27,462 nt of DNA, taken from the IMG/VR virus record IMGVR_UViG_3300005511_000060, positions 1 through 27,462 of that record; one strand, given 5' to 3'. The DNA is from a virus. The notes beneath the pieces were generated by a model that was not told the DNA's origin, searched no databases, and was given only the letters and a program-made list of their open reading frames with translations. Of this stretch, positions 2,097-27,462 are shown one piece after another (positions within the stretch are counted from its first letter, which is position 1; each line of letters begins with the position of its first letter). The position numbers and the translations under genes were made by a program.

Positions 2097-2172
2097 GGCT
2101 CCCGCGCTCACTCATCAAGAGCGAGATTGCGACGAAATACCACTTGTAGGAAATGTCCGATGTACGTATGTT

Positions 2173-2190
2173 CCCGCAATATTGCTGGGG
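2173..2190. promoter_or_regulatory. Palindrome just upstream of the secreted esterase gene
   Basis: The sequence CCCGCAATATTGCTGGGG has a perfect 10-bp core palindrome, GCAATATTGC (2176-2185), flanked by CCC and GGG with one offset base. It lies 13 bases before the preferred ATG at 2204, where it could be an operator or a leader hairpin affecting translation. No binding protein is identified. The nearby 61-aa HTH-like protein is a candidate by proximity only. Confidence 0.3.
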
Positions 2191-2203
2191 ATACATTCTC
2201 ATT

Positions 2204-2908
2204 ATGCACGTCAACCGTCGAACCGCGCTCGGCCTGATAGCCGCAGCCGCCCTGCCGGCGGCAGCCCGAGCGGACGGCAAATTGCGTCACAACGATCGCT
2301 GGCTTCTGTGGGGGGACAGCATCCATACGTATGCCTTTGAAAGCGACGGCACTTTCGGTAATCCCGGTAAGCTGCTTGCCTCGCGCGCGCCCAGCGTCGT
2401 GAACGTTTCTATTCAAAACCTATCAGCTGGCGGCAATCGCGCATGCAGCGGGGGTCACCCCGGCGTCGGAATGGAAGATCATCTCGCAACCATCAACGGC
2501 GTACTAGGTGGGGGCAATCCTCAAGGCATCCTTATCGCGCTCGGCACCAACGATTGGGCGAGCCCCGCAGTTTCCGGAATTAAATTCGTTCAAGCGTACC
2601 GCAAGATAGTGCAGCACTGCGCTGCAGGCATGAAAGTCGTTTGTGTTTCGCCCATCTGGCGGCACGACTACGGGAAGAAAAATCAGAAGGAAGATGGCGC
2701 GTGGGCTTTGGCGGACTACCAAGATTGGGTGACATCAGTGGCACAGGAACAAGGCGTTCAGTGGATTGACAGCAAACTCGCAGACTTGAAGCCGTCTCAT
2801 TTTGCTGATGGCGTACACCTCAACGGATCGGGACACATTGCGGTAGGCGATTTTATCATCAAGCAGATGTGCGAACTGGGCCACTGGCAGCGTCAAGACG
2901 AAAGCTAG
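2204..2908 (+). CDS. Secreted SGNH/GDSL-family hydrolase with Tat-like signal
   Basis: From the ATG at 2204 the product is 234 residues. It begins MHVNRRTALGLIAAAALPAA with an ARA cleavage-like site, a twin-arginine-type export signal. The mature part carries the SGNH blocks: GDS with the nucleophile Ser at about residue 39, a Gly/Asn block around SAGGNRA, GTND at 114-117, and DGVHLNGSGH with Asp202 and His205 completing the triad. Such enzymes hydrolyse esters, often acetyl groups on polysaccharides or peptidoglycan, and this one should act in the periplasm or outside. An in-frame ATG at 2153 would add 17 residues before the signal and is less likely. The gene runs opposite to the tail operon and converges on the minus-strand 69-aa gene, 20 bp away. 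This is the layout of a lysogenic-conversion gene. The substrate cannot be read from sequence. Confidence 0.85.
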   Translation: MHVNRRTALGLIAAAALPAAARADGKLRHNDRWLLWGDSIHTYAFESDGTFGNPGKLLASRAPSVVNVSIQNLSAGGNRACSGGHPGVGMEDHLATINGVLGGGNPQGILIALGTNDWASPAVSGIKFVQAYRKIVQHCAAGMKVVCVSPIWRHDYGKKNQKEDGAWALADYQDWVTSVAQEQGVQWIDSKLADLKPSHFADGVHLNGSGHIAVGDFIIKQMCELGHWQRQDES

Positions 2909-3149: not shown

Positions 3150-3971
3150 CTAGTTTGTTGAAAGTCCTGCGGCCTGGATGGCGCTTACCCACAAGGTCGA
3201 GGCCGTATCCGCGCCCGAAAAGTTGAAATGCGCGTTGTCTCGCCGACCGCCGCTTCCGATCACGTCTGTGTTAGGGCCTGCCAAAATCGTCGTGCCGTTG
3301 ATGGTCCCATTCTGGCCGGCGATGACAGCAGCGCTTGTGGCGCCCTGATAATATGAGGCGCGAGCGATCAGCCACGGCGCGTTGAAGCCCAAGCTGCGAG
3401 GATATGCGATCAGCGACTGCAGCGCAGATGTGTATGCAGCCTGCGTTGTTCCGTTGTAAGTATCAGCTTCGCCTTGTTGCCAAAGGCACCCGTTGACTGT
3501 CAGGCCAAGGGCCTGCGCGCGGAGGAAAGCGACTTTGAGACGCTCACGCATTTCGGATTGCGTTGCCCAGAGGCCAACTGACATGCCGTTGATACCGAGC
3601 GGAATGAGTATAACGCGCCGGTTCGTATCCGCAGCTATGAGCTTGTCAGCCACTCGGACAAACAGATTGCCGTTCGTCACTGGATCATTGTCGAGCGACG
3701 AACAGCCCAGCAGTCCCTCGGTGCCTTCATAAAGACCGCCATCGTAAACGTTCAGGCAGTCGATCTTGTTGGCATTTGCGGCCGTGACAGTGCCTTCAAC
3801 CGAATTGGCGCTGAGCGATTGACCGAGACAAATGTAAACCCCGGTCTTGTCGCCTGAAATCAGTCGCGGATCACGACGAGCTTTCAAAACCGTCCTGTTG
3901 TTACCAAAAGGATATCCTAGCACAGGATCCGGGAAGACAAACGGGTCTGGATTTGAACCGCCGCCGATCAT
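3150..3971 (-). CDS. Tail-associated sialate O-acetylesterase-like (SASA/SGNH) enzyme
   Basis: This 273-residue protein carries the blocks of the carbohydrate-esterase SASA family (formerly DUF303): GQSLS with the nucleophile Ser52, the diagnostic WQQGEAD at 164-170, and DNAHFN with His248. It should remove O-acetyl groups from a surface polysaccharide. There is no signal peptide. The first ~40 residues are Pro/Gly-rich (PDPFVFPDPVLGYPFG) and may attach it to the tail. Its ATG overlaps the stop of the tail-fibre gene (TAATG), so it is made together with the fibre. This context supports a virion-borne depolymerase or deacetylase used in host recognition. A free enzyme released at lysis is the alternative. 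Confidence 0.82.
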   Translation of the reverse strand: MIGGGSNPDPFVFPDPVLGYPFGNNRTVLKARRDPRLISGDKTGVYICLGQSLSANSVEGTVTAANANKIDCLNVYDGGLYEGTEGLLGCSSLDNDPVTNGNLFVRVADKLIAADTNRRVILIPLGINGMSVGLWATQSEMRERLKVAFLRAQALGLTVNGCLWQQGEADTYNGTTQAAYTSALQSLIAYPRSLGFNAPWLIARASYYQGATSAAVIAGQNGTINGTTILAGPNTDVIGSGGRRDNAHFNFSGADTASTLWVSAIQAAGLSTN

Positions 3972-5725
3972 TAGAGCAGCGCCTTTCCACTGAGGCGCTG
4001 AACTTGTCCGGCGAACCCCTTCGTCGATGACCCCGCCGCGCTCTCCAAAAGATTGATCGAGCGCAAACCCTTGGTGAGATATCCCTCGAAGATGGAATAA
4101 GTATTCCAGTAACGATCACTGGTAACACCAACGAATGGGGTCTGCTGTGCAGAATTAACAGTCACGCTGTCGATACCAATGCCAGCCGCTGCCGGCTCAA
4201 CGCCCGCACCATTATTCGTGGCAACTGCTCTTGCAGTCGCCGAAACAAAATTCCCGCTTTCAGCAAACAGGACTGACGCGCATGAATTTGTGTTGTTGTT
4301 CGATTGTTGAAACGCACCGGAAGTAAACGCATTCCAAGTTGCAGACGGTTCGATGTTTTCATTGAAGGGCGTCAAAGCGACATTATAGACATTGCACAGC
4401 AGACGCTTGGTGCTGGTGTTCGCCGCCTGGCCGTTCGCAACGGCATTGAAGGTCGCGAGTTTGGTGGCCTGACGAGCCGGCACGGAAATCGTGTCGCCAG
4501 AGTTCACGCCGGTTCGTAAGGTGATCGTGACCTTGTTGACTCGGATGCCGTTGATAACTTCGATTTCGTTCGTACCGGTGCCAGTTCCTTCACTGTCAGT
4601 TGTGGTCCAAGCCGGGCCGGTGCCAATGACAACCGCACCGCTGACCCACGCTGCATAGATGTTGAAGTTCTCGCCGGACTGGTGATAGCCCGCAAAACCT
4701 GAGTTGGCCGTCAACGCAAAGGCGATCTCGGCAAACCGTCGCGGCATCATGAGACCTAGCGTCGCATCGTAGATCGGCAGAAGATCGCCCTGAAACGGCA
4801 TCACATAGATCGTCGTCGCGCCAGATACGTCGCTGGTCGGGACCGGCACGCCCTGCGTGAGCGAGACGCGAACTTGCGGGGTAAAAATTGCCCCCAAAGT
4901 GGCGAGCGCGAGAGGCTTGTTCGTCAGTTCGCTCAGATTGTTGGCCGCGACCAGGTCCCCCACGCCGCTACCATCTTCCCCGTCTTCCCCTTTCGGGATA
5001 CCGAAGTTAAGGACAGACGCGCCTGGGACGCCCACGTCGACGACTGTTGCGGCGCTTCCAGCGGGAAGTGTGGTAACAGTGCCAACCTCGATGGTCGCGG
5101 GCTCACCCTGCTCACCCTGCGCCCCTCTCGCAGCGAGAACCGCCCAATAAGTCACGTTCGGCGGCGCATGGCCGACTCCGGACGTCTGATTGATCCAGAC
5201 ATAAGACGCGCCGTCGAGCGTGGCCACGTCGTTCAGCGAATAGGTTTTACCGTTATCATACGGCGCCGGCGTACCGAACCCTTTGAAGATGCCGTCAAAT
5301 ACCCAGGCGCCGCCTTCCTTGTGCCACTGCTTGCCGGTGGAAGGCTGATAAGCCCACTGACCTTCATCACCGTTCGACGGGTCGGGTTCAAGTTTCGCCG
5401 GGCCCACGAACCAGATGAACCCCTCATTGTTGAGAGCGGCCACGAGCTTGCCGAGGTCGCGCGCAACTTCATCAACATCAGACCGCGCCGAGTAGTTCTG
5501 ATAGATCGCATATTCGACATTGGTCTTAGCGCCGAACTTCCATTCAGGAATGACGAGATTGTCGTCGTCCGTTACAGCAAGCACCATCGTGATCGCGGCA
5601 CCGTCGATGACAATCCAGTCGCCTTCGCGGACGTTGTTGCCCCAGATCGTGGTGCCACCGCCCGACACGATAGTGCCGTTCACCGACACGGAGACCGTGC
5701 CGGTGTTGTAGACTGGAATGGTCAT
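3971..5725 (-). CDS. Tail fibre protein with short collagen-like repeats
   Basis: This 584-residue protein starts MTIPVYNTGTVSVSVNGTIV, an N-terminal beta-rich segment seen in many tail fibres that would attach to the tail tip. A coil-like region (ARDLGKLVAALNNEG) follows, then a carbohydrate-module-like stretch with YDNGKTYSLNDVATLDG and YVWI. Collagen-like triplets flank an alanine/valine segment (GAQGEQGEP and GIPKGEDGEDGSG). The fibre motif NNLSELTNKPLALATLGAI comes next, then a long, Ser/Thr/Asn-rich beta C-terminus that is likely the receptor-binding part. It sits between the small tail genes and the overlapping SASA esterase. The receptor is not identifiable. Confidence 0.85.
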   Translation of the reverse strand: MTIPVYNTGTVSVSVNGTIVSGGGTTIWGNNVREGDWIVIDGAAITMVLAVTDDDNLVIPEWKFGAKTNVEYAIYQNYSARSDVDEVARDLGKLVAALNNEGFIWFVGPAKLEPDPSNGDEGQWAYQPSTGKQWHKEGGAWVFDGIFKGFGTPAPYDNGKTYSLNDVATLDGASYVWINQTSGVGHAPPNVTYWAVLAARGAQGEQGEPATIEVGTVTTLPAGSAATVVDVGVPGASVLNFGIPKGEDGEDGSGVGDLVAANNLSELTNKPLALATLGAIFTPQVRVSLTQGVPVPTSDVSGATTIYVMPFQGDLLPIYDATLGLMMPRRFAEIAFALTANSGFAGYHQSGENFNIYAAWVSGAVVIGTGPAWTTTDSEGTGTGTNEIEVINGIRVNKVTITLRTGVNSGDTISVPARQATKLATFNAVANGQAANTSTKRLLCNVYNVALTPFNENIEPSATWNAFTSGAFQQSNNNTNSCASVLFAESGNFVSATARAVATNNGAGVEPAAAGIGIDSVTVNSAQQTPFVGVTSDRYWNTYSIFEGYLTKGLRSINLLESAAGSSTKGFAGQVQRLSGKALL

Positions 5726-5728
5726 GAA

Positions 5729-6088
5729 TTATCTCTGCGGAAGTTGATCAATAACTTTGGCGAGATCGACGAGGGTGGCCGCGGCCTCTGCAGCGCGGAT
5801 CGCCTGCTGCCGTTGCCATGAACGCTGGTCGACCGGGTTCGACTTGGACAAGATGAGGTCCGCGAATTCGCTAACCGAGAGATCGCGAGACGTTGCCTCC
5901 GCCGCGAATTCTAATGTAGAAGCGACGTGGCCGGCTGACTTGACGGCGCCTGCGATTTCGCGCTTGCGTGCCCAGTCCTGTTCGCGGTGCAGATTGGCAA
6001 ACGCCAGCGACTGGAAATGAGCGTTGATTCTAGCGAACGCCTGTTGGCGACGTTCCGCCAGCGGGGAGAAAGTGATCCGCTGGGTCAA
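5729..6088 (-). CDS. 119-aa helical protein of unknown function, tail region
   Basis: The product begins MTQRITFSPLAERRQQAFAR and is almost wholly alpha-helical by composition: Ala, Gln, Arg and Glu rich, with no membrane segment. It starts at a TTG that overlaps the previous gene's stop (TTGA), with GGGGG about 10 bases upstream, and ends 3 bases before the tail-fibre start. Tight coupling on both sides shows that it belongs to the tail module. I do not recognise its family. A fibre connector or chaperone is possible but unsupported. Confidence 0.7.
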   Translation of the reverse strand: MTQRITFSPLAERRQQAFARINAHFQSLAFANLHREQDWARKREIAGAVKSAGHVASTLEFAAEATSRDLSVSEFADLILSKSNPVDQRSWQRQQAIRAAEAAATLVDLAKVIDQLPQR

Positions 6089-6552
6089 AGGATTACCCCC
6101 GAATAGTCGGGGACATATAGCGACGTGGCTGTCGGGTTCTTCGCAACAAGCGTAATCGTTGCGGGAATGTGTTTAGGGCACTCAACGAAAATTCTATATT
6201 GAGCAGCGTCAGTCGACGCGAACTCTAGATTGTCGTCATTGGCGAAATACTGACCGTAGGGCGCGTCGTCACACGAAATGATAACATTGGCCCCGAGTGG
6301 GATGCCCGATACGGTGACTGCGTCGGATCCATCCGCGACAAACTCCACCTTATCGACGACAAGCTCAATCGGCTTACAAGGTCTCACGGATTTACTGACG
6401 ACATCGACGAAATGCGTGTGAATGTCGAGCGTCGTGGCGCCTTCGTAAAATAGCCACTGAACGCCCTGACGCGTCAGGACGTCGCCGTAATCCTTGCCCG
6501 GTCCGCTGATGGTCCCGGTGATTTTTCCCGACATCTCGTAAATGACAAACAC
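6085..6552 (-). CDS. 155-aa beta-rich protein of unknown function, tail region
   Basis: It is likely read from a GTG at 6552, because GGAGAG lies about 8 bases before it inside the end of the previous gene. An ATG at 6534 (MSGKITGTISG) is the alternative. The chain is beta-rich, with alternating Val/Ile/Thr and short turns, and includes GVQWLFYEGATTLDIHTHFVD and a bacterial-Ig-like stretch DGSDAVTVSGIPLGANVIIS. Position and composition suggest a minor virion protein near the tail tip. No family is recognised. Confidence 0.7.
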   Translation of the reverse strand: MFVIYEMSGKITGTISGPGKDYGDVLTRQGVQWLFYEGATTLDIHTHFVDVVSKSVRPCKPIELVVDKVEFVADGSDAVTVSGIPLGANVIISCDDAPYGQYFANDDNLEFASTDAAQYRIFVECPKHIPATITLVAKNPTATSLYVPDYSGVIL

Positions 6553-6555
6553 GGT

Positions 6556-7128
6556 TTAACTCTCCAATACGAGATACTTGACAGTAAGTGTGGCGGATCC
6601 GTTGTATCGAAATTCGATACGGTCATTGAAACAGAGGCCGATGAAGCGGGCGCTTGCCCAGTCGTTGTCGACTTCTCCGTTTGAACCGGCGACGTTTTGA
6701 TTTCGCTTGATGACGGGACCGTATGTGTCGTCGTTTACTCCGGTACTCATCATTCTTTCGCTAAGGTAAGTGTGATACTGACCGGCGAGGTATCCGAGCT
6801 GACTGGTTGGCGCCGTGTAAAGTGGAACATTCCAGCTCGGCGCGCTTCCAACTGCGAACAGATTGGGGATTGGCGATACGTAGCGGCCGAAATATATGGT
6901 CTGCGTGGTCATCTTAGCGCCAGGATATTGCCCAGCGGCACCGAGTGGCGCAGGACCGTTCGTTGGCGAAATCGTGGCGGTCCCGCCGATGACTTTTACC
7001 GGGGATATATAGTCTGAAGAAAAAGCCAAGTGCACGGGCGACGCAGTGAGAACGTCAATGCCCGGCTTGGAGACATCGAACCCAAACGTTCCGTTTAGCC
7101 GCTTTCCTTTCAAGATTCTCGTGGCCAT
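6556..7128 (-). CDS. Tail-region paralog A (190 aa), shared N-terminal module
   Basis: The first ~35 residues (MATRILKGKRLNGTFGFDV, then SKPGIDV and TASP) match those of the two preceding proteins (7128-7586 and 7576-8016). The consensus is M-A-x-R, G-K, G-x-x-G, S-x-P-G-x-D. The remaining ~150 residues differ and are beta-rich with Tyr, Asn and Gly, ending RYNGSATLTVKYLVLES. The ATG overlaps the stop of paralog B by one base (TGATG). It lies between the tail-tip and fibre genes, so it is probably an exposed tail-tip accessory whose N-terminus docks to a common partner. No named family is recognised. Confidence 0.75.
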   Translation of the reverse strand: MATRILKGKRLNGTFGFDVSKPGIDVLTASPVHLAFSSDYISPVKVIGGTATISPTNGPAPLGAAGQYPGAKMTTQTIYFGRYVSPIPNLFAVGSAPSWNVPLYTAPTSQLGYLAGQYHTYLSERMMSTGVNDDTYGPVIKRNQNVAGSNGEVDNDWASARFIGLCFNDRIEFRYNGSATLTVKYLVLES

Positions 7129-7586
7129 CAGAACACCGCCCTGAAGATCGACCAGTTTACGTCGTAGGTGTACGTATTCGATGTCGAAGAACTATTTCCG
7201 CTTGCTGTTGTAAACACGACGGATAGCACGAGAACGCCCGAAATAACTCGCCACTTCAAATAGCTTGAAGTGATTGATCCCTCATCAAAACTGCCAGATC
7301 CACTTATCGTGCTGGTGTAATTGCAGTTGACGATCAACCTTGAGAACGCAGCAAACTCAGAAGGAAGAACGATTGTTGCTGTCGCAACGTATCCGGCGGG
7401 AACACTAGATCCTGGACCTGATAATGTGAGGACGTTGCTCGTCCCCTTCAGAACGGTCTGGTATATCTGCGAATTGGTATCGAGCATGAACTGCCCCGGC
7501 GAAGCCGAGTACACATCCACGCCCGGTTTGCTTATCCATCCACCATATTGTCCGGCCCGCTGACCGAACAGACACCTAACCGCCAT
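7128..7586 (-). CDS. Tail-region paralog B (152 aa), shared N-terminal module
   Basis: The N-terminus MAVRCLFGQRAGQYGGWISK with PGVDVYSASPGQF is the same module as in the neighbours A and C. The C-terminal part is unrelated, very rich in Ser, Thr and Val, and looks like a beta-sandwich (TSTISGSGSFDEGSITSSYLK). The ATG at 7586 is chosen over a TTG at 7592 because it aligns with the MAxR start of both paralogs. It overlaps the end of paralog C by 11 bases, consistent with coupling. The role is inferred from position: a small tail-tip or fibre-base protein. Confidence 0.75.
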   Translation of the reverse strand: MAVRCLFGQRAGQYGGWISKPGVDVYSASPGQFMLDTNSQIYQTVLKGTSNVLTLSGPGSSVPAGYVATATIVLPSEFAAFSRLIVNCNYTSTISGSGSFDEGSITSSYLKWRVISGVLVLSVVFTTASGNSSSTSNTYTYDVNWSIFRAVF

Positions 7587-8016
7587 TCGCAAACACCGAG
7601 TATAGGAAAAGCTGTCCGGTCGGGTTGTAGAACGCTCGCGGGTCGTAGTTGCTATTCGTGTACGGCATGACCTGGATATAGCTGGTCGTTACAATCGCAA
7701 TGACCGGAATCCATCGATGAGTTGATGCGACGCCGCCTGCGGCGTTCAGAAACGTTTCGTTGGATGAATAGAGGTCTGCGCCATCCCACCTGTTGATCTT
7801 GCAGATGGGAACGTAGGGCATCGCAGGAAACGGAATGGCCGCACCACCGCATGTGATCAGACCGGACGCAACGACGGTCCCTGATTGCTCAACACGCGTA
7901 TCAAACGAGATGCCGCGCGACCCAAATGGCTCCGAGAACGCGTCGTATCCCGGCACCGACGTGCGGATCCCGTAATCGCCGCCTATGAGCTTTCCGGAGA
8001 CCATGCGTACTGCCAC
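7576..8016 (-). CDS. Tail-region paralog C (146 aa), shared N-terminal module
   Basis: Read from a GTG at 8016, the protein starts MAVRMVSGKLIGGDYGIRTS with PGYDAFSEPFG, the most diverged copy of the shared module. The rest contains proline/aromatic beta segments (PFPAMPYVPICKINRWDG, HRWIPVIAIVTTSYIQV). It is the first of three tandem paralogs directly behind the tail-tip gene, starting 3 bases after that gene's stop. This position suggests attachment to the tail tip, but function is not shown by the sequence. Confidence 0.73.
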   Translation of the reverse strand: MAVRMVSGKLIGGDYGIRTSVPGYDAFSEPFGSRGISFDTRVEQSGTVVASGLITCGGAAIPFPAMPYVPICKINRWDGADLYSSNETFLNAAGGVASTHRWIPVIAIVTTSYIQVMPYTNSNYDPRAFYNPTGQLFLYSVFANGG

Positions 8017-8019
8017 GTC

Positions 8020-10617
8020 TCAGTCGCTCCACGTCGCTCGCTCATTGGCGAGATCGATGATCATACGGCCCGTTGGCCCCTGAATGAGACCTGCGGTGAT
8101 CGTTCCCATGTTGGCGGTGATGGCACTAAGCGTGGCAACGCTCATCTTGCCAGCGGTGATCGATCCATCAGCGTAGACATCCGCGCGCAACGCGATCTTG
8201 GGGACGCCATTGACTAAAGCAGTCTGGAAGATTGGCACTGCACCACCACCAGGACCGAGCGCCGCGATCTGGAAATTGGTCGTGATGAACGTGGTGGACG
8301 AAACCCCGCCGCCCGCATTGATGAGCGTGAACCCGGTCGCATACCCATTGACGTCCAGCGTGACGCTGTATTTCGACGCCGCGTAGCCTTCCAGCGTGGC
8401 GATGGAATTCGAGTTGACGGTGATGTTCGAATAGACTTCTCCAAACTGAGCGCTGACCGTGGTCGTAAGGTCTGCCAGCGCCAGAATGTCGTCGGCGACT
8501 ACGATCCCTAGGTCTTCGATCGCTGCCTTAGCGCCGCCGGCCTGTGCTATTAGCTGGGTCCGTATCTCCTTCTTGTCGATCGCGGTGCGCGCCAGAGCTT
8601 GCTGAAGCAACAAAGAATTGTGTTTTACAACCTCGATGAGCTCAGGCATCTGATTGCCGAACACCTTGTTGGTCTCGTTTCTCAACGCTTCATTGAAGTC
8701 TCTGATGCTAAGGTCGACCTTTCGCGTCGTTACGGGGCGCCAGTCCGACCAGATCATGTCGCGCGGCGCGCTCGGAACGTATTGCATACGCACCTGATAC
8801 GTAGTGCTCGGCAAGATAGATTGCTGGATCAACATCGCGCCGACCGCAAATGCGCCCGGCGGAGACAGCCCGTTCGCCACGACGACATATCCGCCGACTT
8901 GGCTATCATACGTTCGCGCCTCATAAGAAATACCCGTGACACCAGGCAAGCTACCGTCCCAACCAATGCGAATCGCTGGCCGCCGCTCAAATCCCTCGTT
9001 GTCCTTCATGACGGCCGCTTCCACGAACCAATCCACAATTCCCTGCGGCTCGGGTCGCGGGAAACTCGTCGGCCCGCTGAAGACCGGCGAGTAATCTTGC
9101 CCAGGGTCCCAGCTGTAATCACCAGGGTCGACCTCGGTCAGGTTCAAACTGACGTCAAGGCTCGGCTCGTCGACCACGCCGTCGACGCGGAATAGCTTGC
9201 CTTCGTAGCCGTTGCGCGCCGACGTCCATTCGCCCACATCACCAGGCTCGACCAGCCAGAATCCGGGCGGCATCACCATGGCGTGCCGACGCGCGCGCTG
9301 GGCTTCCTCCAGCGCTGACTTCATCAGCTGCTGGACCTGCTCGGAATCCCACACGGCATCAAACGATGGATTGGCCAGCAAACGCCTGCCGCCGTCTCTT
9401 GTCTCGAGATCGGATCGATACAGCGGCGGCGCAGCCTTCTGGTTCCATCCTTCGGCTGGGTTTGGATAGGTCGCTGTGATGCCGTTGATGCTGTCGGCAA
9501 GCGGGAAGAACGGCGCGAAGTTCTGGGCTTCGGTCGAAAGGATATCATCGTCGGTGAATGCAAACGTCGGACTGCCCGGCGCGCCAAGATGGATTTTGTA
9601 GAAGCCGCCGATCTCCGACACCCGGCCCTGGCACGCGGTTAGGAACACCTCGATCGCGTTAGCCGGCTGCGTGTCGACGTTGACCTGAAGACCGGATCGA
9701 TACGTTGCCCGCACACCCCCCGCTGCCGTTGGAATCAGGGAGCGGCACTTTGTAATCTGCGAGATCCAATTGACCGTCGGCAGCCGAGCCGCAGTCATGC
9801 TCTGGAGACCGTAGACCCATTGCCCGCCATAGCTGATGCCGCGCAGAATATTGTAAATCTGCACTGCAGGCAGATCATCACCATCCCCGCCCCAGGTGGA
9901 GCGATCAGACCACCGGTGCGAGCCCGATCCGCCAACGGTCGCGTCCTTCGACGGATCGTAAAGAGGAACACCAGCGACGGCGAACTTATACGTCGGAAAG
10001 CCGGTAAAGAGCGTGTCTTCCACCAGTGCCGTGCAGATCACATAAGCGATGCCATGGCCGACCCGGCTCGGCCCCCACGGCCGATCGGCTGATGAGACCC
10101 TCGTCTGCAGGAAGGTGTCCGCGGCCGTCTGCGTGCCATCATAGAACTTGACCCAGACATGATGAGCAAAGTTCTTGAAATACTCCATCACCGGATAGCC
10201 GAGGACGGGATCGGCATCGGGGCCAAGCGTGCAAAGCTCACCATTGACCCAGACTTGCGAAAGGCCCTTTAGCGGAAGGTCAGAGAGAGAGATGACCTGG
10301 GTGAAGTACGCGTTCGGCGTCTCACCGATCTGGCCCCAAGTGTTTGCGTACACCAGCGATCCCGCGGTCACGCTGTAGCCGAGATTGAACGAGCGCGGGA
10401 CATCGCCGCCAGCTTGGAGCGTGCCCTGAGCTGAGAACCCATCGGCCTTCGCCGCCGCCGGCTCCTCCTTGTTTCCCGCAAGAGCCTTGGCGGCATAATT
10501 CAGCGCAACGGACGCACCGATTTGAAGGCCAAAAGCCAACGCGCCGACAGCAAACGTGCTTGTGGCAAGCGCCGTCCCCGCGAGAAGCGCGGTCGCTGCA
10601 GCCGTAAAGATTGCCAT
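8020..10617 (-). CDS. Tail-tip / host-specificity protein (lambda gpJ-like role)
   Basis: This 865-residue protein is the large tail-tip component. A hydrophobic Ala/Gly-rich N-terminus (residues ~1-48, MAIFTAAATALLAGTALATS) is followed by a hub-like region with SFNLGYSVTAGSLVYANTWG and LKGLSQVWVNGE. A middle region typical of phage tip-attachment proteins comes next (PAVQIYNILRGI, IEVFLTACQGRVSEIGGFYKI, PPGFWLVEPGDV). Then there is a fibronectin-III-like stretch (YEARTYDS and STTYQVRMQYVPSAPRD) and a coiled region. The C-terminus ends with a GVPKIALRADVYADGSITAG module of the DUF1983 kind found in J-like proteins. It should recognise the host surface. The gene starts 3 bases after the GNAT-like gene. 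Its C-terminal module recurs in the small protein at 11766-12065. Confidence 0.88.
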   Translation of the reverse strand: MAIFTAAATALLAGTALATSTFAVGALAFGLQIGASVALNYAAKALAGNKEEPAAAKADGFSAQGTLQAGGDVPRSFNLGYSVTAGSLVYANTWGQIGETPNAYFTQVISLSDLPLKGLSQVWVNGELCTLGPDADPVLGYPVMEYFKNFAHHVWVKFYDGTQTAADTFLQTRVSSADRPWGPSRVGHGIAYVICTALVEDTLFTGFPTYKFAVAGVPLYDPSKDATVGGSGSHRWSDRSTWGGDGDDLPAVQIYNILRGISYGGQWVYGLQSMTAARLPTVNWISQITKCRSLIPTAAGGVRATYRSGLQVNVDTQPANAIEVFLTACQGRVSEIGGFYKIHLGAPGSPTFAFTDDDILSTEAQNFAPFFPLADSINGITATYPNPAEGWNQKAAPPLYRSDLETRDGGRRLLANPSFDAVWDSEQVQQLMKSALEEAQRARRHAMVMPPGFWLVEPGDVGEWTSARNGYEGKLFRVDGVVDEPSLDVSLNLTEVDPGDYSWDPGQDYSPVFSGPTSFPRPEPQGIVDWFVEAAVMKDNEGFERRPAIRIGWDGSLPGVTGISYEARTYDSQVGGYVVVANGLSPPGAFAVGAMLIQQSILPSTTYQVRMQYVPSAPRDMIWSDWRPVTTRKVDLSIRDFNEALRNETNKVFGNQMPELIEVVKHNSLLLQQALARTAIDKKEIRTQLIAQAGGAKAAIEDLGIVVADDILALADLTTTVSAQFGEVYSNITVNSNSIATLEGYAASKYSVTLDVNGYATGFTLINAGGGVSSTTFITTNFQIAALGPGGGAVPIFQTALVNGVPKIALRADVYADGSITAGKMSVATLSAITANMGTITAGLIQGPTGRMIIDLANERATWSD

Positions 10618-10620
10618 TGA

Positions 10621-11082
10621 TTAGCGGACTTTCAGAAAATGCAGCTCAGCGGCGCGATAGCCGTGGTGCTCGTAAAGCACACGTACATCCGGATCTTCGC
10701 CCATGCCGGCCATGCCGCCGAACTGGCAGCCCTCGGCCGCCCACCAGACGTCATAGGCGTCGAGCATCTGCAGTGCAGCACGTCCCCGATGTGCCGGGTC
10801 GATCCACCAGACCGTCTCCTTGGCCACCCATACCGGTCCGAAAGGGTGCTGATAGGCAAATGCCATCAGGACGCCCTGCGCCCGGCCGTCGACATCGTGA
10901 ACCAGGCAGCAGGCGTGCGGGCCATTCAGGTGCGCGAGAAACAATCGCTCGGCAAAAGCCGGGTCGAAGGGGAACACGAAACCCGTCGCCCCGTCCGGCC
11001 GATCGAAGCCAGCCCCGGCCCGCGAATCCCGCAAGAGCAGGATTACACGCTCTTTGTCGGAAAGCGTTGCAGGCCTGATCAT
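10621..11082 (-). CDS. GNAT-type N-acetyltransferase-like protein in the tail module
   Basis: The 153-residue product starts MIRPATLSDKERVILLLRDS, the classic beta1-alpha1 opening of GNAT enzymes. It continues with a central strand (VDGRAQGVLMAFAYQ), a motif-A-like VDP/IDPAHRGRAALQMLDA acetyl-CoA loop, and a final FLKVR after YEHHGYRAAELHF. It is flanked by the distal tail gene (ATGA overlap) and the tail-tip gene (3-bp gap). In GTA-type tail modules this slot usually holds an NlpC/P60 peptidase. Such GNAT-like genes occur in phage virion modules, but their substrate is generally unknown. It may modify a virion protein or a host target. The acetyl-CoA loop looks somewhat degenerate, so it could also be structural. 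Confidence 0.78.
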   Translation of the reverse strand: MIRPATLSDKERVILLLRDSRAGAGFDRPDGATGFVFPFDPAFAERLFLAHLNGPHACCLVHDVDGRAQGVLMAFAYQHPFGPVWVAKETVWWIDPAHRGRAALQMLDAYDVWWAAEGCQFGGMAGMGEDPDVRVLYEHHGYRAAELHFLKVR

Positions 11083-11759
11083 CTAAAAAGGATCCTGGTT
11101 GCGTCCGCCACGCTCGGCGCCGGCGCGCCGGTCGCTGTGCCGCTTGCGCGGCCCCAGAAGAACTGCCAGCCGCCAACTACGGCTGTGTCCGCATAAAAAT
11201 CGTCGCCGGGCGCGCGCGCCTGCTGCGAGGCATCAGAGCGCGTCTCGGTATTGGTGCGGGTCAGTTCCTGCGTGTGCGAGTTGCAGGTGAGGACGACGGA
11301 GCCCTCGCCGCCCTCTTCCGGCGTCTTGATCTGGATGTCGTCGATGAAGCCGACGAAGCGCGGCGCGGCCGGCGCAACAAGCTGCCGGGTCTCTGGGTCG
11401 AACAGTCCACGGAATATCTCGACCCTGCCCTGCTTGCACTCATAGGTCCGGACCAGATCATTCACGCGGTCGGCCACCTGGGACAGCGTTACGGTGACGT
11501 TCTGCACCGTCAGGTTCGAAACCAGCGGAATAGCCGAGATCGAGATCAGCGCACCGACGCCGAACCACTGACGCGAGTTAGCGCCGCCGGTGTTTGGGTC
11601 GATCACGGACGCGGTGATCGTGCCGACGTCCGACCAGTAGCCGTCATAAACAGGATCGCCGCTGTTGCGGTTTTTGACCTGAAACCAAATAAAGTCGCGG
11701 GCCAACAGCTTGCGCTGCTGCAAGGCGACATAGTTCTCGGCCGAGAGTGAACGGGTCAT
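11079..11759 (-). CDS. Distal tail / hub protein (DUF2163-like)
   Basis: The 226-residue product starts MTRSLSAENYVALQQRKLLA and has a middle part typical of baseplate-hub proteins of the DUF2163/TIGR02218 kind: ISISAIPLVSNLTVQNVTV, a VEIFRGLFDPETRQL strand and an RFVGFIDDIQI strand. It ends in a segment RSDASQQARAPGDDFYADT followed by GWQFFWGR. In this phage class the gene lies between the first distal tail protein and the tail-tip gene, as here. A 650-bp insertion now separates it from its expected upstream neighbour at 12410-13048. No good ribosome site is seen before the ATG. The family name is from memory of such modules and could be a close relative instead. Confidence 0.78.
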   Translation of the reverse strand: MTRSLSAENYVALQQRKLLARDFIWFQVKNRNSGDPVYDGYWSDVGTITASVIDPNTGGANSRQWFGVGALISISAIPLVSNLTVQNVTVTLSQVADRVNDLVRTYECKQGRVEIFRGLFDPETRQLVAPAAPRFVGFIDDIQIKTPEEGGEGSVVLTCNSHTQELTRTNTETRSDASQQARAPGDDFYADTAVVGGWQFFWGRASGTATGAPAPSVADATRILFR

Positions 11760-11765
11760 GGATTT

Positions 11766-12065
11766 TCAGAGCCGCAGCGAGCTAGGAGTGACAATGCCAA
11801 TGTTTGCAGTAATTGCGGTCAGATTAATTGAGCTCAGCTTACGAGCGGTGATCGATCCATCGGCGTAAACATTGCCGCGGAGCGCGACTTTCGGCACACC
11901 ATAGGCCGTCGCGATTTGGTAGACGGCCCCCGGAACGGGAAGATACGCTGCCACAGAATTAACAGTGCCTGAGGCGGCTATTGGCGCGAGTAGAAATCCT
12001 CGCAGAAATGAGCGGCGATGCACAGCGATCTCCGTTTGTTCAGGTTCCCGAGGCGGGGAAGTCAT
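11766..12065 (-). CDS. Tat-signal protein carrying a copy of the tail-tip C-terminal module
   Basis: From the ATG at 12065 the product is 99 residues. It begins MTSPPREPEQTEIAVHRRSF with RRSFLRG followed by a hydrophobic run (FLLAPIAASGTVNSVAA), a classic twin-arginine signal. The rest, from GAVYQIATAYGVPKVALRGN through VYADGSITARKLSSINLTAI, aligns with the last ~60 residues of the tail-tip protein (GVPKIALRADVYADGSITAG, LSAITANMG). The DNA is also similar, including GCGGTGATCGATCCATC in both. It was therefore made by duplication of the 3' end of a tail-tip gene onto an export signal. It sits in an insertion between two distal tail genes, divergent from the plus-strand gene at 12095. The role is unknown. 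An exported decoy or receptor blocker is a hypothesis. A start at a TTG (12143) is less likely. Confidence 0.72.
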   Translation of the reverse strand: MTSPPREPEQTEIAVHRRSFLRGFLLAPIAASGTVNSVAAYLPVPGAVYQIATAYGVPKVALRGNVYADGSITARKLSSINLTAITANIGIVTPSSLRL

Positions 12066-12094
12066 GATCCAATCCAGGAAAACGGAAGGCGCGC

Positions 12095-12394
12095 ATGACC
12101 GAAAACGAAAAACAATTCGCCGAGCAAGTTGCGGCAATCGCAATATCGAGCGCAGATCTCACTGCACGACTTGTGTTTCGCTTGGTCAATCTAAAGAAGA
12201 TCTCACCAAACGAAGCGCTGTTGATTTTGGGCGACTTATCTGGCCATCAGCGTGATCTAGCGACGCGGAATGCACACATCGCAGGATCGGCACACGCTTA
12301 TCACAAGATAGCTGACCGATTGGACGTCCATTCTGATCAACTGCAGAAAGAGACGGGAGCGACGCTTCCGACAGTGAATCGCAAACCAAAGTGA
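12095..12394 (+). CDS. 99-aa helical protein of unknown function, antisense insertion in tail operon
   Basis: The product starts MTENEKQFAEQVAAIAISSA and is predicted helical and soluble (LTARLVFRLVNLKKISPNEALL, HIAGSAHAYHKIADRL), with a basic C-terminal end. A GGAAGG ribosome site lies 6 bases before the ATG. The gene lies on the plus strand inside an otherwise minus-strand tail operon. It starts 29 bases from the divergent Tat-signal gene and ends 15 bases before the stop of the distal tail gene. That geometry fits an accessory (moron) insertion with its own promoter, perhaps expressed in the lysogen. I recognise no family. A regulator or partner of the adjacent exported protein is possible, but the sequence does not show it. 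Confidence 0.62.
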   Translation: MTENEKQFAEQVAAIAISSADLTARLVFRLVNLKKISPNEALLILGDLSGHQRDLATRNAHIAGSAHAYHKIADRLDVHSDQLQKETGATLPTVNRKPK

Positions 12395-12409
12395 AATACT
12401 CGTTCGGGT

Positions 12410-13048
12410 TCATAGCCGACCCTCGATTGCCTGAAACGCCACACTGCCCCAGCCGTTTAGACCCGCATCTGCCGAGACAGAGCCCGGCACGATCGCCATA
12501 AGGCAGGCTGGACGATAGACGGAGACGGCCGCGCCGGCTGTGCGAGACGGCCAGAGGTGCGGGCGAACCTCGAATTCGGGCGTCAACCCGCCGACAGCAG
12601 CCGTCGCGGGCTCCATGACCTGGTGCAGGTCGCCAGCGATCGACAGGAAGTCACCGACCGAGAATTTGAAGCCGACGGGAAGGTCATCAATGCGGATAGC
12701 CTTGCGGTTCGCATTGATCGACGACAGCTCGGCTGAGACGCCGTCGAACGCGCCTCCTGTCGGCCAGGAGCCCTTTGGATGAGCGATCGGATAGGTACGG
12801 GCCACAGGATAGCCCCAGAACGTCTTGAGGCCATTTTCCAGCGCCGCCAGCCGCGCACGCCAGTAGTCGAGATCGTTCGGACGCAAGACCTTGGTCTGCG
12901 CCGCCATCTGCCACAGCGGCGAGCCCATGTCCTTGACGATGGTTCGGCCGCCAGCGGTGCGGGATTGCTCCTGCCGATATCGCAGTTCGAATTTGGTGAC
13001 CCAGCCCGGAAATTCCGGTAGCAGGTCGAACGGTTCAGTCAAAGCCAT
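12410..13048 (-). CDS. Distal tail protein (DUF2460-like position)
   Basis: This 212-residue protein starts MALTEPFDLLPEFPGWVTKF and contains RYRQEQSRTAGGRTIVKDMG, SPLWQMAAQTKVL, LENGLKTFWGYPV and a C-terminal domain ending in GSVAFQAIEGRL. It lies immediately after the tape measure with a one-base TGATG overlap, the place of the first distal tail protein in this phage type. The last segment (SVAFQAIEGRL) resembles the ring-forming end of distal tail proteins. The exact family is not certain. The role as a tail-tip structural protein rests on position, size and composition. Confidence 0.75.
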   Translation of the reverse strand: MALTEPFDLLPEFPGWVTKFELRYRQEQSRTAGGRTIVKDMGSPLWQMAAQTKVLRPNDLDYWRARLAALENGLKTFWGYPVARTYPIAHPKGSWPTGGAFDGVSAELSSINANRKAIRIDDLPVGFKFSVGDFLSIAGDLHQVMEPATAAVGGLTPEFEVRPHLWPSRTAGAAVSVYRPACLMAIVPGSVSADAGLNGWGSVAFQAIEGRL

Positions 13049-26025: not shown

Positions 26026-27462
26026 TTAGAACGAGCGCAGGATCTGCACCGAACCGTTGTAGTGGTTCTGGTTGGTGACAGCGTAACCACCAGCCGGTTG
26101 TGCACGGCCGTTGACATTGCCGCTCCAGGTGCCGCCGAGGTTCTGCTCCAGACGGCTGTAGGTGAACTGAGCCGACAGGGTCAGGTTGCGGACCGGAGTC
26201 CAGGCGGTACGGGTACCGATCTGGGCGAGACCCAGGTCGAAATTGCCCGTCGAACCGGCGAGCGTGCCGATAGTGGTCGTTCCGCCAGTGGCGGTGGTGC
26301 GGCCAGCAGCGAAGGATGCTGCGAGCAGGGCGTTGCCGCCCTCCCCATAGGAGATGTGGCTGTAGTTACCAAACACCGAGGTGCGCCAGGCCGGATTCCA
26401 GTAGTGCTCGTAGAAAGCGCTGACTGCCCAGGCTTCGCTCTGCTGCACCCCGCCGGTCGGACCATAAACGCCGTCAAGCACGTAACCGAAGCCGATGGTG
26501 TTTCCGGTAGCCTTGGCATAGCGACCGCCGCCGACGATGTCGGTGGTGCCGCCGAAGACGTACTTGGCAGCGCCCTTGCCGTAGGTGGCTTCGAGCTTCA
26601 AGCTGTCGCCTGCGCCGGTGGGCAGGTTCTTGAACTCGACGCCGCCGGTCACAGCGAAGCCGTAGGAGTCATCCGGGTGACCGGTTGCGGTGTTGCCAAC
26701 AGCACCATAGTAGCCCGGCGTGATCGTGTGCATCGCAGCTGCGAAGTGCAGGGTGCCCCATGCCTGATCGAGGCGGAGGTTCGCCACGACGTCCGGAATG
26801 TGGTTGCCGCCGTACGAGTTGCCCGAAAAGGTGTTCGATGACGTGCCGTAGCCCGTGGTAACACCAGCACCGAACGGTGCGAGGAGGCTCAGCTGGTTGT
26901 TATAGAGACCAGCGTTGCGGTAGGGCGACGCGTTTTCGAGCGAGATGGTGGCCGAGAAGCCATTACCGAACGAAGCGGTGTAAGCGATCTGCGGGATACC
27001 GGTCGCGTTGTTCGAACCGGCGTTGAAGCCCGACGAGATGTACGGCTTCGAGAGCGCCCACTGCGGGTCGAACTGCGAGACGGCCTTACCGAAGGTGAAG
27101 CCGGCGAACTGGATGAAGGCGTAGTCGACTTCGGTGAAGCCGCCAGCGATGTTCTCACGGCCCTGCAGGAAGTCGAACTGGATGTTCGCGTAGGTACGAA
27201 CGACACCGTATTCAGTCGCGGTGCGGGTATCCGTGGTCAGGTTGATACGCTGACGGGTCGAGATGTAGTCCTGCAGGTACGAGCCGCCGCCGTTATTGCC
27301 ACCCTGCCAGAACGGATTGTCGTAGGTACCGCCGTTGAATGCGGTATCGATACGGATCGCGCCGCCGATCTTGATGCAGGTATCGGTGCCCGGGATGTAG
27401 TAGAAGCCTGCGCCGTAGAGCGAGCAAACCTTCACATATTCCACGGCCTTTGCCTTGACCGG
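26026..27462 (-). CDS. Outer-membrane porin, partial (Omp2b/Porin_2-like), host gene
   Basis: The frame runs to the right edge, beginning inside with PVKAKAVEYVKVCSLYGAGF, the start of mature Bradyrhizobium-type porins, so the signal peptide lies outside the window. It continues with FYYIPGTDTCIKIGGAIRID, RQRINLTTDTRTATEYGVVR, and ends at LRSF with the C-terminal Phe needed for outer-membrane assembly. The product is a trimeric beta-barrel for small solutes, about 478 residues visible. A strong terminator follows. It is the only clear host gene in the window and the main evidence for the organism group. GTG at 27444 is an internal Val codon, not a start. Confidence 0.95.
   Translation of the reverse strand, partial: PVKAKAVEYVKVCSLYGAGFYYIPGTDTCIKIGGAIRIDTAFNGGTYDNPFWQGGNNGGGSYLQDYISTRQRINLTTDTRTATEYGVVRTYANIQFDFLQGRENIAGGFTEVDYAFIQFAGFTFGKAVSQFDPQWALSKPYISSGFNAGSNNATGIPQIAYTASFGNGFSATISLENASPYRNAGLYNNQLSLLAPFGAGVTTGYGTSSNTFSGNSYGGNHIPDVVANLRLDQAWGTLHFAAAMHTITPGYYGAVGNTATGHPDDSYGFAVTGGVEFKNLPTGAGDSLKLEATYGKGAAKYVFGGTTDIVGGGRYAKATGNTIGFGYVLDGVYGPTGGVQQSEAWAVSAFYEHYWNPAWRTSVFGNYSHISYGEGGNALLAASFAAGRTTATGGTTTIGTLAGSTGNFDLGLAQIGTRTAWTPVRNLTLSAQFTYSRLEQNLGGTWSGNVNGRAQPAGGYAVTNQNHYNGSVQILRSF

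Follow-up and report, generated by a model that had tools for sequence, protein, structure and literature searches.

Export-type signals joined to pieces of tail-tip proteins: a recurrent accessory gene class in tail operons of Rhizobiales phages

A short gene located between two tail genes of an environmental virus raises the question of why a piece of a phage's own tail tip would be placed behind a signal for protein export. The stretch analysed here, referred to as the window, is an IMG/VR virus record in its entirety (27,462 bases), in which the following features are of relevance.

8020..10617 (-): tail tip protein, assigned to phrog_5616 and containing a Phage-tail_3 domain; the module stems from this family
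8089..8271 (-): part of the tail tip with which the module aligns at the protein level
11079..11759 (-): tail protein of phrog_2048, adjoining the insert on its downstream side
11760..12409 (no strand): accessory insert of 650 bp, filling the gap between two tail genes and missing in the close relative L003
11766..12023 (-): gene for a Tat signal plus tail-tip module, most likely 85 aa from GTG 12023, with Shine-Dalgarno sequence ACGGAGATCGCT directly 5' of the GTG and the arginine pair at residues 3-4, as in relatives
11766-12065 (-): the same gene as delimited in an earlier note, 99 aa from ATG 12065, also present as an ORF
11781..11957 (-): module with homology to the C-terminal portion of this phage's tail tip (aa identity of 58%, with DNA similarity)
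11946..12023 (-): twin-arginine-type signal MHRRSFLRGFLLAPIAASGTVNSVAA, comprising the motif and an uncharged hydrophobic run, with putative cleavage after SVA or VAA
12024..12035 (-): Shine-Dalgarno region of the gene as read from the sequence, with GGAG at 12030-12033
12095..12394 (+): opposite-strand ORF of 99 aa within the insert, with a good Shine-Dalgarno sequence (GGAAGG)
12410..13048 (-): distal tail protein of phrog_1302, adjoining the insert on its upstream side

The host was assigned to the Bradyrhizobium group based on relatives of the tail genes and on a porin gene at 26026-27444 (-), relatives of which (~36-47% identical) were found in 38 of 41 Bradyrhizobium genomes. This Bradyrhizobium-type porin lies at the end of the record, as either host flank or a phage-borne gene. 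Following the tip gene, positions 6085-8016 (-) contain four consecutive small fibre-like genes without a family match, three of which share the N-terminal pattern R..G...G.YG...S.PG.D...A. A second Tat-type protein is encoded at 2153-2908 (+), on the strand opposite to the tail genes, and consists of MHVNRRTALGLIAAAALPAAARA followed by a GDSL/SGNH hydrolase (PF13472); its gene lies near that of a tail-linked sialate-type esterase (SASA; 3150-3971), and its product is possibly a surface-modifying lysogenic conversion protein.

The earlier note had described the gene between the tail genes as encoding a 99-aa protein with a textbook twin-arginine signal. Both this ORF and a canonical RRSFL motif are present; the start, however, is likely to be GTG 12023 (upstream sequence ACGGAGATCGCTGTGCATCGCCGC; translated start MHRRSFLRGFLLAPIAASGTVNSVAAYLPV), which yields an 85-aa product beginning with MHRRSFLRG. 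This start was adopted because the GTG is preceded by GGAG at a 6-nt spacing (ACGGAGATCGCTGTG) and because relatives, most of which possess a good ribosome site, begin similarly close to the arginine pair, i.e. two to four residues ahead of it (RR at residues 3-6).

Residues 2-8 of the GTG form (HRRSFLR) conform to the S/T-R-R-x-F-L-K-like motif expected near the N-terminus, and correspond to MKRRSF or MNRRSF in relatives, while GFLLAPIAASGTVNSVAA provides the hydrophobic stretch, which passed a test for an uncharged 13-mer, and a small-x-small cleavage region. A strict Tat motif followed by a hydrophobic stretch was observed in 2 of the 156 ORFs of the window, compared with 0.43 per dinucleotide-shuffled window; the second such ORF (5478-) was dismissed as an implausible frame within a tail gene. 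The window protein obtained no match at all to the curated Tat models of Pfam and NCBIfam, which represents a real weakness, and relatives scored below the cut-offs (L264, PF10518, 16.0 vs 22.7; L201, TIGR01409, 13.1 vs 16.7); the signal is therefore termed Tat-type rather than that of a proven Tat substrate. As the gapped alignment with the tip extends to residue 13, it was considered that the Tat start might be an artefact of aligning tip beta strands. This idea was rejected because relatives carry similar signals before different tip segments. Judged from its sequence, the start of the window protein is an export-type, Tat-like signal beyond what chance would be expected to produce.

The remainder of the protein was shown to be related to the end of the phage's own tail tip. 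Residues 37-95 (99-aa numbering) match the tip at 8089-8271 (-) with 58% identity (E 7e-15 in a search of the window's record), and the mature part scored 58.5 bits against this tip in blastp, compared with a maximum of 26.9 bits in 200 shuffles searched against 136 distinct tips, indicative of homology beyond chance. At the DNA level, positions 11832-11902 are 79% similar to 8140-8210 across 71 bp. These results bear out the earlier statements that ~60 residues resemble the end of the tail tip and that DNA similarity connects 11840-11920 with 8145-8225, coordinates close to those measured. The term 'copy', used in the same note, is to be read as 58% identity, and the module corresponds to only the last part of the C-terminal domain of the tip.

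Across 45 aligned codons, module and tip differ at 11, 10 and 25 sites at positions 1, 2 and 3, respectively. The resulting codon-position ratio of the module (0.81, vs a mean of 1.06 in tip-tip pairs of similar identity) is as low as among tips, and the amino-acid sequence of the module has therefore been kept, with the reservation that a module captured recently from a tip outside the sample would give an identical pattern. In a nucleotide tree of the core, the module was placed beside the tips of its own phage and of the closest relative (support 0.887), while the protein tree gave no placement. A search of the PDB with the tip retrieved only marginal matches to T5 pb3 (E 0.15), and AlphaFold models of the tip C-terminus, which is in reality probably a trimer, and of the fusion were unreliable (mean pLDDT 44-46).

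To its credit, the earlier note had also stated that the gene is inserted between tail genes, and the close relative L003 demonstrates the corresponding empty site: its distal tail protein and next tail protein are 97% and 98% identical to those of the window, respectively, and the two genes overlap (CTGTGACG; CGGCTGTGACG). An extra gene thus separates two genes that lie side by side in a close relative, and the base composition deviates (GC content of 0.53 for the insert, 0.60 for the window and 0.63 for the flanking genes), both of which are characteristic of a moron. No promoter or terminator was recognised in the insert with a sigma-70 scan, a tool that does not reach alphaproteobacterial promoters, and no homologue was found for the opposite-strand ORF at 12095-12394 (+).

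Among ~95 related loci, the spacing at the homologous junction ranges from overlap to ~1,000 bp, and in prophages of the Agrobacterium/Rhizobium type many of the inserts code, in opposite orientation to the tail genes, for lipoproteins, membrane proteins or secreted proteins. The junction between the distal tail gene and the next tail gene is an accessory-gene slot. In L072, L078, L083-L085, L087, L093, L095, L096 and L100, it forms a recurrent opposite-strand moron slot occupied by a small lipoprotein family (MK..IVALSAACLTACQQGPIVKSEPFDWKKAV...), several loci also encoding a 184-aa multi-span membrane protein. Likewise inserted in the tail operon, at L096:4227-4745(-) and 4820-5383(-), two genes on the opposite strand lie beside the Tat-module gene of that locus; one apparently encodes an aspartyl protease resembling retropepsins (AVDTGADHIYIDP), the other apparently a ferritin-like protein of the DUF892 type.

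When used as a query, the 99-aa protein retrieved no relative from the viral_contigs, genome_contigs or phages collections, and module matches in 272 Bradyrhizobium genomes were confined to long tip frames. In the collections searched, the window gene is a singleton. The impression that the architecture, too, is unique changed when it was itself searched for by two scans of tail loci, one for strict Tat starts and the other for short ORFs matching tip C-termini; such pattern-based scans can establish presence and not absence. The recurrence in other prophages that had been proposed as a check was found in seven other Rhizobiales phage or prophage loci, some of them related pairs, in which M[KN]RRSF[LF]A-type proteins with mature parts resembling tail-tip C-termini are encoded in tail-operon slots.

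For example, the L096 gene is located between the tape measure and distal tail genes and specifies MDMKRRSFFAALLAAPFIPYAAKSAQA and, behind it, a module with 68% identity to tips, while the L201 product consists of MNRRSFLAALCAASILPAAKLIADN and a module 61% identical to the tip of another phage and 51% identical to its own. Three cases were found in bacterial genomes: in L250/L221 the Tat-module gene lies between two tail genes, in L251/L242 it lies just 3' of the tip gene and has the same end as the tip (52% identity to the tip of its own prophage), and in L252/L249 it is located downstream of the tip. The viral contig L264 encodes an orthologue of the L250 gene in another slot, 5' of the tape measure gene. 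Finally, phi2LM21_p49 of the Sinorhizobium prophage phi2LM21, annotated as hypothetical, is a relative of the L251 gene located directly after tail fibre gene J; a text search of the paper on this prophage found mention of neither p49 nor twin-arginine, and mitomycin C induction in that study gave only another phage (PMC5537653).

The similarity to tips is clear for the window, L096, L201 and L251 (48-67 bits vs at most 27 in shuffles). It is weaker in L250, L264, L252 and p49, the matches of which are short, with 29-36 bits against shuffle maxima of 24-30, above nearly all or all shuffles. Several candidates were set aside: the mature parts of L102 12022+ and L267 5001+ scored within shuffled controls, so that these represent Tat-type morons without a tip module; H1, from a podophage, is a long tail-type protein without a fusion; short ORFs in L082 and L095 are tip genes broken in the assemblies; and weak genome matches in unrelated proteins (e.g. 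L122, L246, L247 and L254-L261) were discarded. A Rhizobiales-type prophage was also encountered in L025, a contig labelled Bacillus subtilis SK6B4, for which reason this assembly is probably mislabelled or contaminated.

Stand-alone tip-module proteins without a signal were found in the same slots in L194, L192, L208 and L081, indicating that not every form of the module would be exported. Annotated as hypothetical, the short Tat-signal proteins encoded in tail operons define a recurrent gene class hidden by present annotation, which none of the searched family libraries treats as a family and which is encountered repeatedly in viruses that infect soil-dwelling relatives of Bradyrhizobium and Rhizobium.

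The signals score alike across the loci, while the mature parts are mostly unrelated outside the groups L096/L201, L250/L264 and L251/p49, from which it follows that tip pieces were joined to signals more than once or that a conserved signal repeatedly received a different module. The segments of the tip C-terminus used behind the signals differ, and the module is nearest to its own tip in the window and L251, and to the tip of another phage in L201, L250 and L252. L096, L250 and L264 share a hairpin and an GGAGATGGAnATG start region; terminator-like hairpins lie immediately 5' of the gene in L096 and L250, the DNA of which aligns across the start with 78% identity over 58 bp. The shared region suggests a moving cassette, at least as read from these alignments, and movement is further indicated by the different tail-operon slots occupied by the L250 and L264 orthologues. 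Over 95 codons, this orthologous pair displays a dN of 0.168 and a dS of 0.894 (omega ~0.19; signal part, dN 0.079 and dS 1.50), substitution estimates that point to purifying selection in this one pair; the L251/p49 pair, which is more divergent, is near saturation (dN 0.58, dS 1.09).

The accessory status of the gene was demonstrated by one slot in which, next to a neighbouring protein at least 96% identical, L189 contains nothing and L201 a Tat-module protein; the same slot harbours signal-less proteins ending in the tip module (L194 and L192) or other ORFs (L197, L191 and L211). In L201 and L194, the flanking DNA is 91% and 85% identical and the intervening sequences are unrelated, both occupants nevertheless ending in the tip module. 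Because near-identical neighbours carry nothing or other genes, the gene is not needed for tail building, and the Tat-module genes are a dispensable accessory gene class. The architecture, its recurrence with different tip segments and the purifying selection in one orthologous pair are, like this accessory status, observed here directly.

Several further observations concern the ends of small tail-operon genes. In L251, the 3' ends of the tip gene and the Tat gene are identical at 36 of 37 bp (97%) and flank ~700 bp, which looks like a recombination arm or gene conversion. At L208:1387-1965(-), L081:5071-5637(+), L098:5982-6347 and L091:5989-6351, small tail-operon proteins end in a copy of the C-terminal tail of the tape measure protein; the tip module is present as well in two of these, namely those encoded between the tape measure gene and the distal tail gene, and the products are mosaics of tail-protein pieces.

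What such a protein does was considered against three alternatives. The gene may be recombination debris, i.e. a Tat-signal moron to which the 3' portion of a tip gene was joined accidentally upon insertion in a recombination hot spot, the tip part being functionless or a homology arm. The arm-like 3' ends in L251, the tape-measure-like tails in other slots, the Tat-signal proteins without a tip module (L102 and L267) and the singleton status of the window gene are all consistent with this explanation. The tip gene is, however, not adjacent in most loci, the fusion recurs with the module directly behind the signal, exported modules differ from those of tips mainly at third codon positions, and the L250/L264 pair appears to be under purifying selection, so that we consider debris unlikely, if still a serious contender. 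A role in the virion appears similarly unlikely: the module would serve as a tag for docking to the tail tip while virions are assembled, with the variable N-terminus as payload and a Tat-like start that is membrane-active or cryptic. The location of all cases in tail operons, in tail-gene direction, and the signal-less versions with other N-terminal domains in the same slot (L194 and L192) or in the slot between tape measure and distal tail genes (L208 and L081) argue for docking, whereas the dispensability for the tail evident from phages with 97-99% identical neighbours that lack the gene or carry other content (L189 and L197), and the exact RRSF[LF] motif with its hydrophobic run, suggestive of real export signals, argue against it.

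According to a third explanation, the protein is exported late in the lytic cycle, being made together with the tail proteins and coating receptors or tips in lysed debris, which would spare the progeny and offer no protection to a lysogen. The gene shares its direction with the late tail genes, a promoter of its own was not recognised, and T5 Llp, a lytic-cycle exclusion protein encoded beside the receptor-binding gene, provides a precedent (PMC9586334). A soluble periplasmic protein would nonetheless be poorly suited to masking surface receptors, and the promoter scan misses alphaproteobacterial promoters; we regard this as quite improbable.

Our best guess, which we hold with rather less than even confidence from the combined analyses, is superinfection exclusion by an exported tip mimic. 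In this reading, the moron would encode a very small protein exported via the Tat pathway, the mature part of which mimics the beta module found at the C-terminus of tail tips in the same phage group. It would most likely bring about exclusion from within the periplasm, through homotypic contact with the tip of an incoming phage or through occupation of the partner of that tip. In favour of this reading are the empty site in L003, the recurrence of the architecture, the purifying selection in the L250/L264 pair, the different slots of these two orthologues, the replacement of the L201 gene by an unrelated gene that again ends in a tip module, the lipoproteins and membrane proteins encoded in the homologous slot of other Rhizobiales prophages, and the precedents of T5 Llp and the Tai morons. 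Weighing against it are the failure of the window protein to match any Tat model, the signal-less proteins with the same module, the singleton status of the window gene, and the short, weak matches in L250, L252, L264 and p49. The proposal that it interferes with the folding of incoming tail tips is unlikely as worded, since the tip of an incoming virion is folded already; locking the rearrangement of the incoming tip, or blocking a receptor from the periplasmic side, would be more plausible. Display by the lysogen, as also suggested in the earlier note, is doubtful, because the gene has the orientation of the late tail genes and the scan recognised no promoter for it. Export, its timing, the target and exclusion itself are what we infer.

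The window protein matched no significant family in Pfam, PHROG, NCBIfam or PADLOC, including the described superinfection exclusion families; none of the relatives tested matched PADLOC, and the open-licence literature searched yielded nothing relevant on Tat together with phage exclusion or morons. That the repeated joining of export signals to a phage's own tail-tip pieces constitutes an undescribed class of self-derived exclusion is a possibility that we advance still more tentatively. If true, it would parallel, in bacteria, the receptor interference that captured viral envelope genes exert in animals, and phages would block competitors with exported fragments of their own entry apparatus, a simple and evolvable route to exclusion. 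The contacts made by siphophage tips past the outer membrane are a poorly understood step, and would in that case become testable.

Among known systems, T5 Llp is a small periplasmic lipoprotein, the gene of which adjoins that of the receptor-binding protein, and blocks the receptor from inside (PMC9586334). The window protein resembles Llp, as well as Cor of T1, phi80 and N15, in being a small phage-encoded protein with a proposed periplasmic action, and in T5 also in the position beside the receptor-binding gene; it differs in that Llp and Cor are lipoproteins without a described resemblance to a tip, whereas the window protein has a Tat-type signal, no lipobox and a tip-derived mature part. 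Ltp, the superinfection exclusion lipoprotein of Streptococcus phage TP-J34, is similarly a small exported moron product directed against a tail component and acts outside the membrane (PMC3952083). In contrast, it is a lipoprotein with repeats, encoded in the lysogeny module, with the tape measure protein as its reported target and no virion-derived module described. Tail assembly inhibition (Tai) morons, which occur in lambdoid phages and PICIs, are directed at the C-terminal portion of J, the central tail fibre, and interfere during assembly (PMC11364771); they thus act on the tail assembly of the infecting phage, and neither Tat export nor an origin from the tip has been described for them. 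Lambda gpJ itself is the central fibre, the C-terminal part of which undergoes rearrangement when the receptor is bound and opens the tail (PMC11101478). The C-terminus of gpJ-like tips, represented here by phrog_5616, is homologous to the module, which in the present class is detached and placed behind a Tat-type signal on a separate protein of 70-130 aa.
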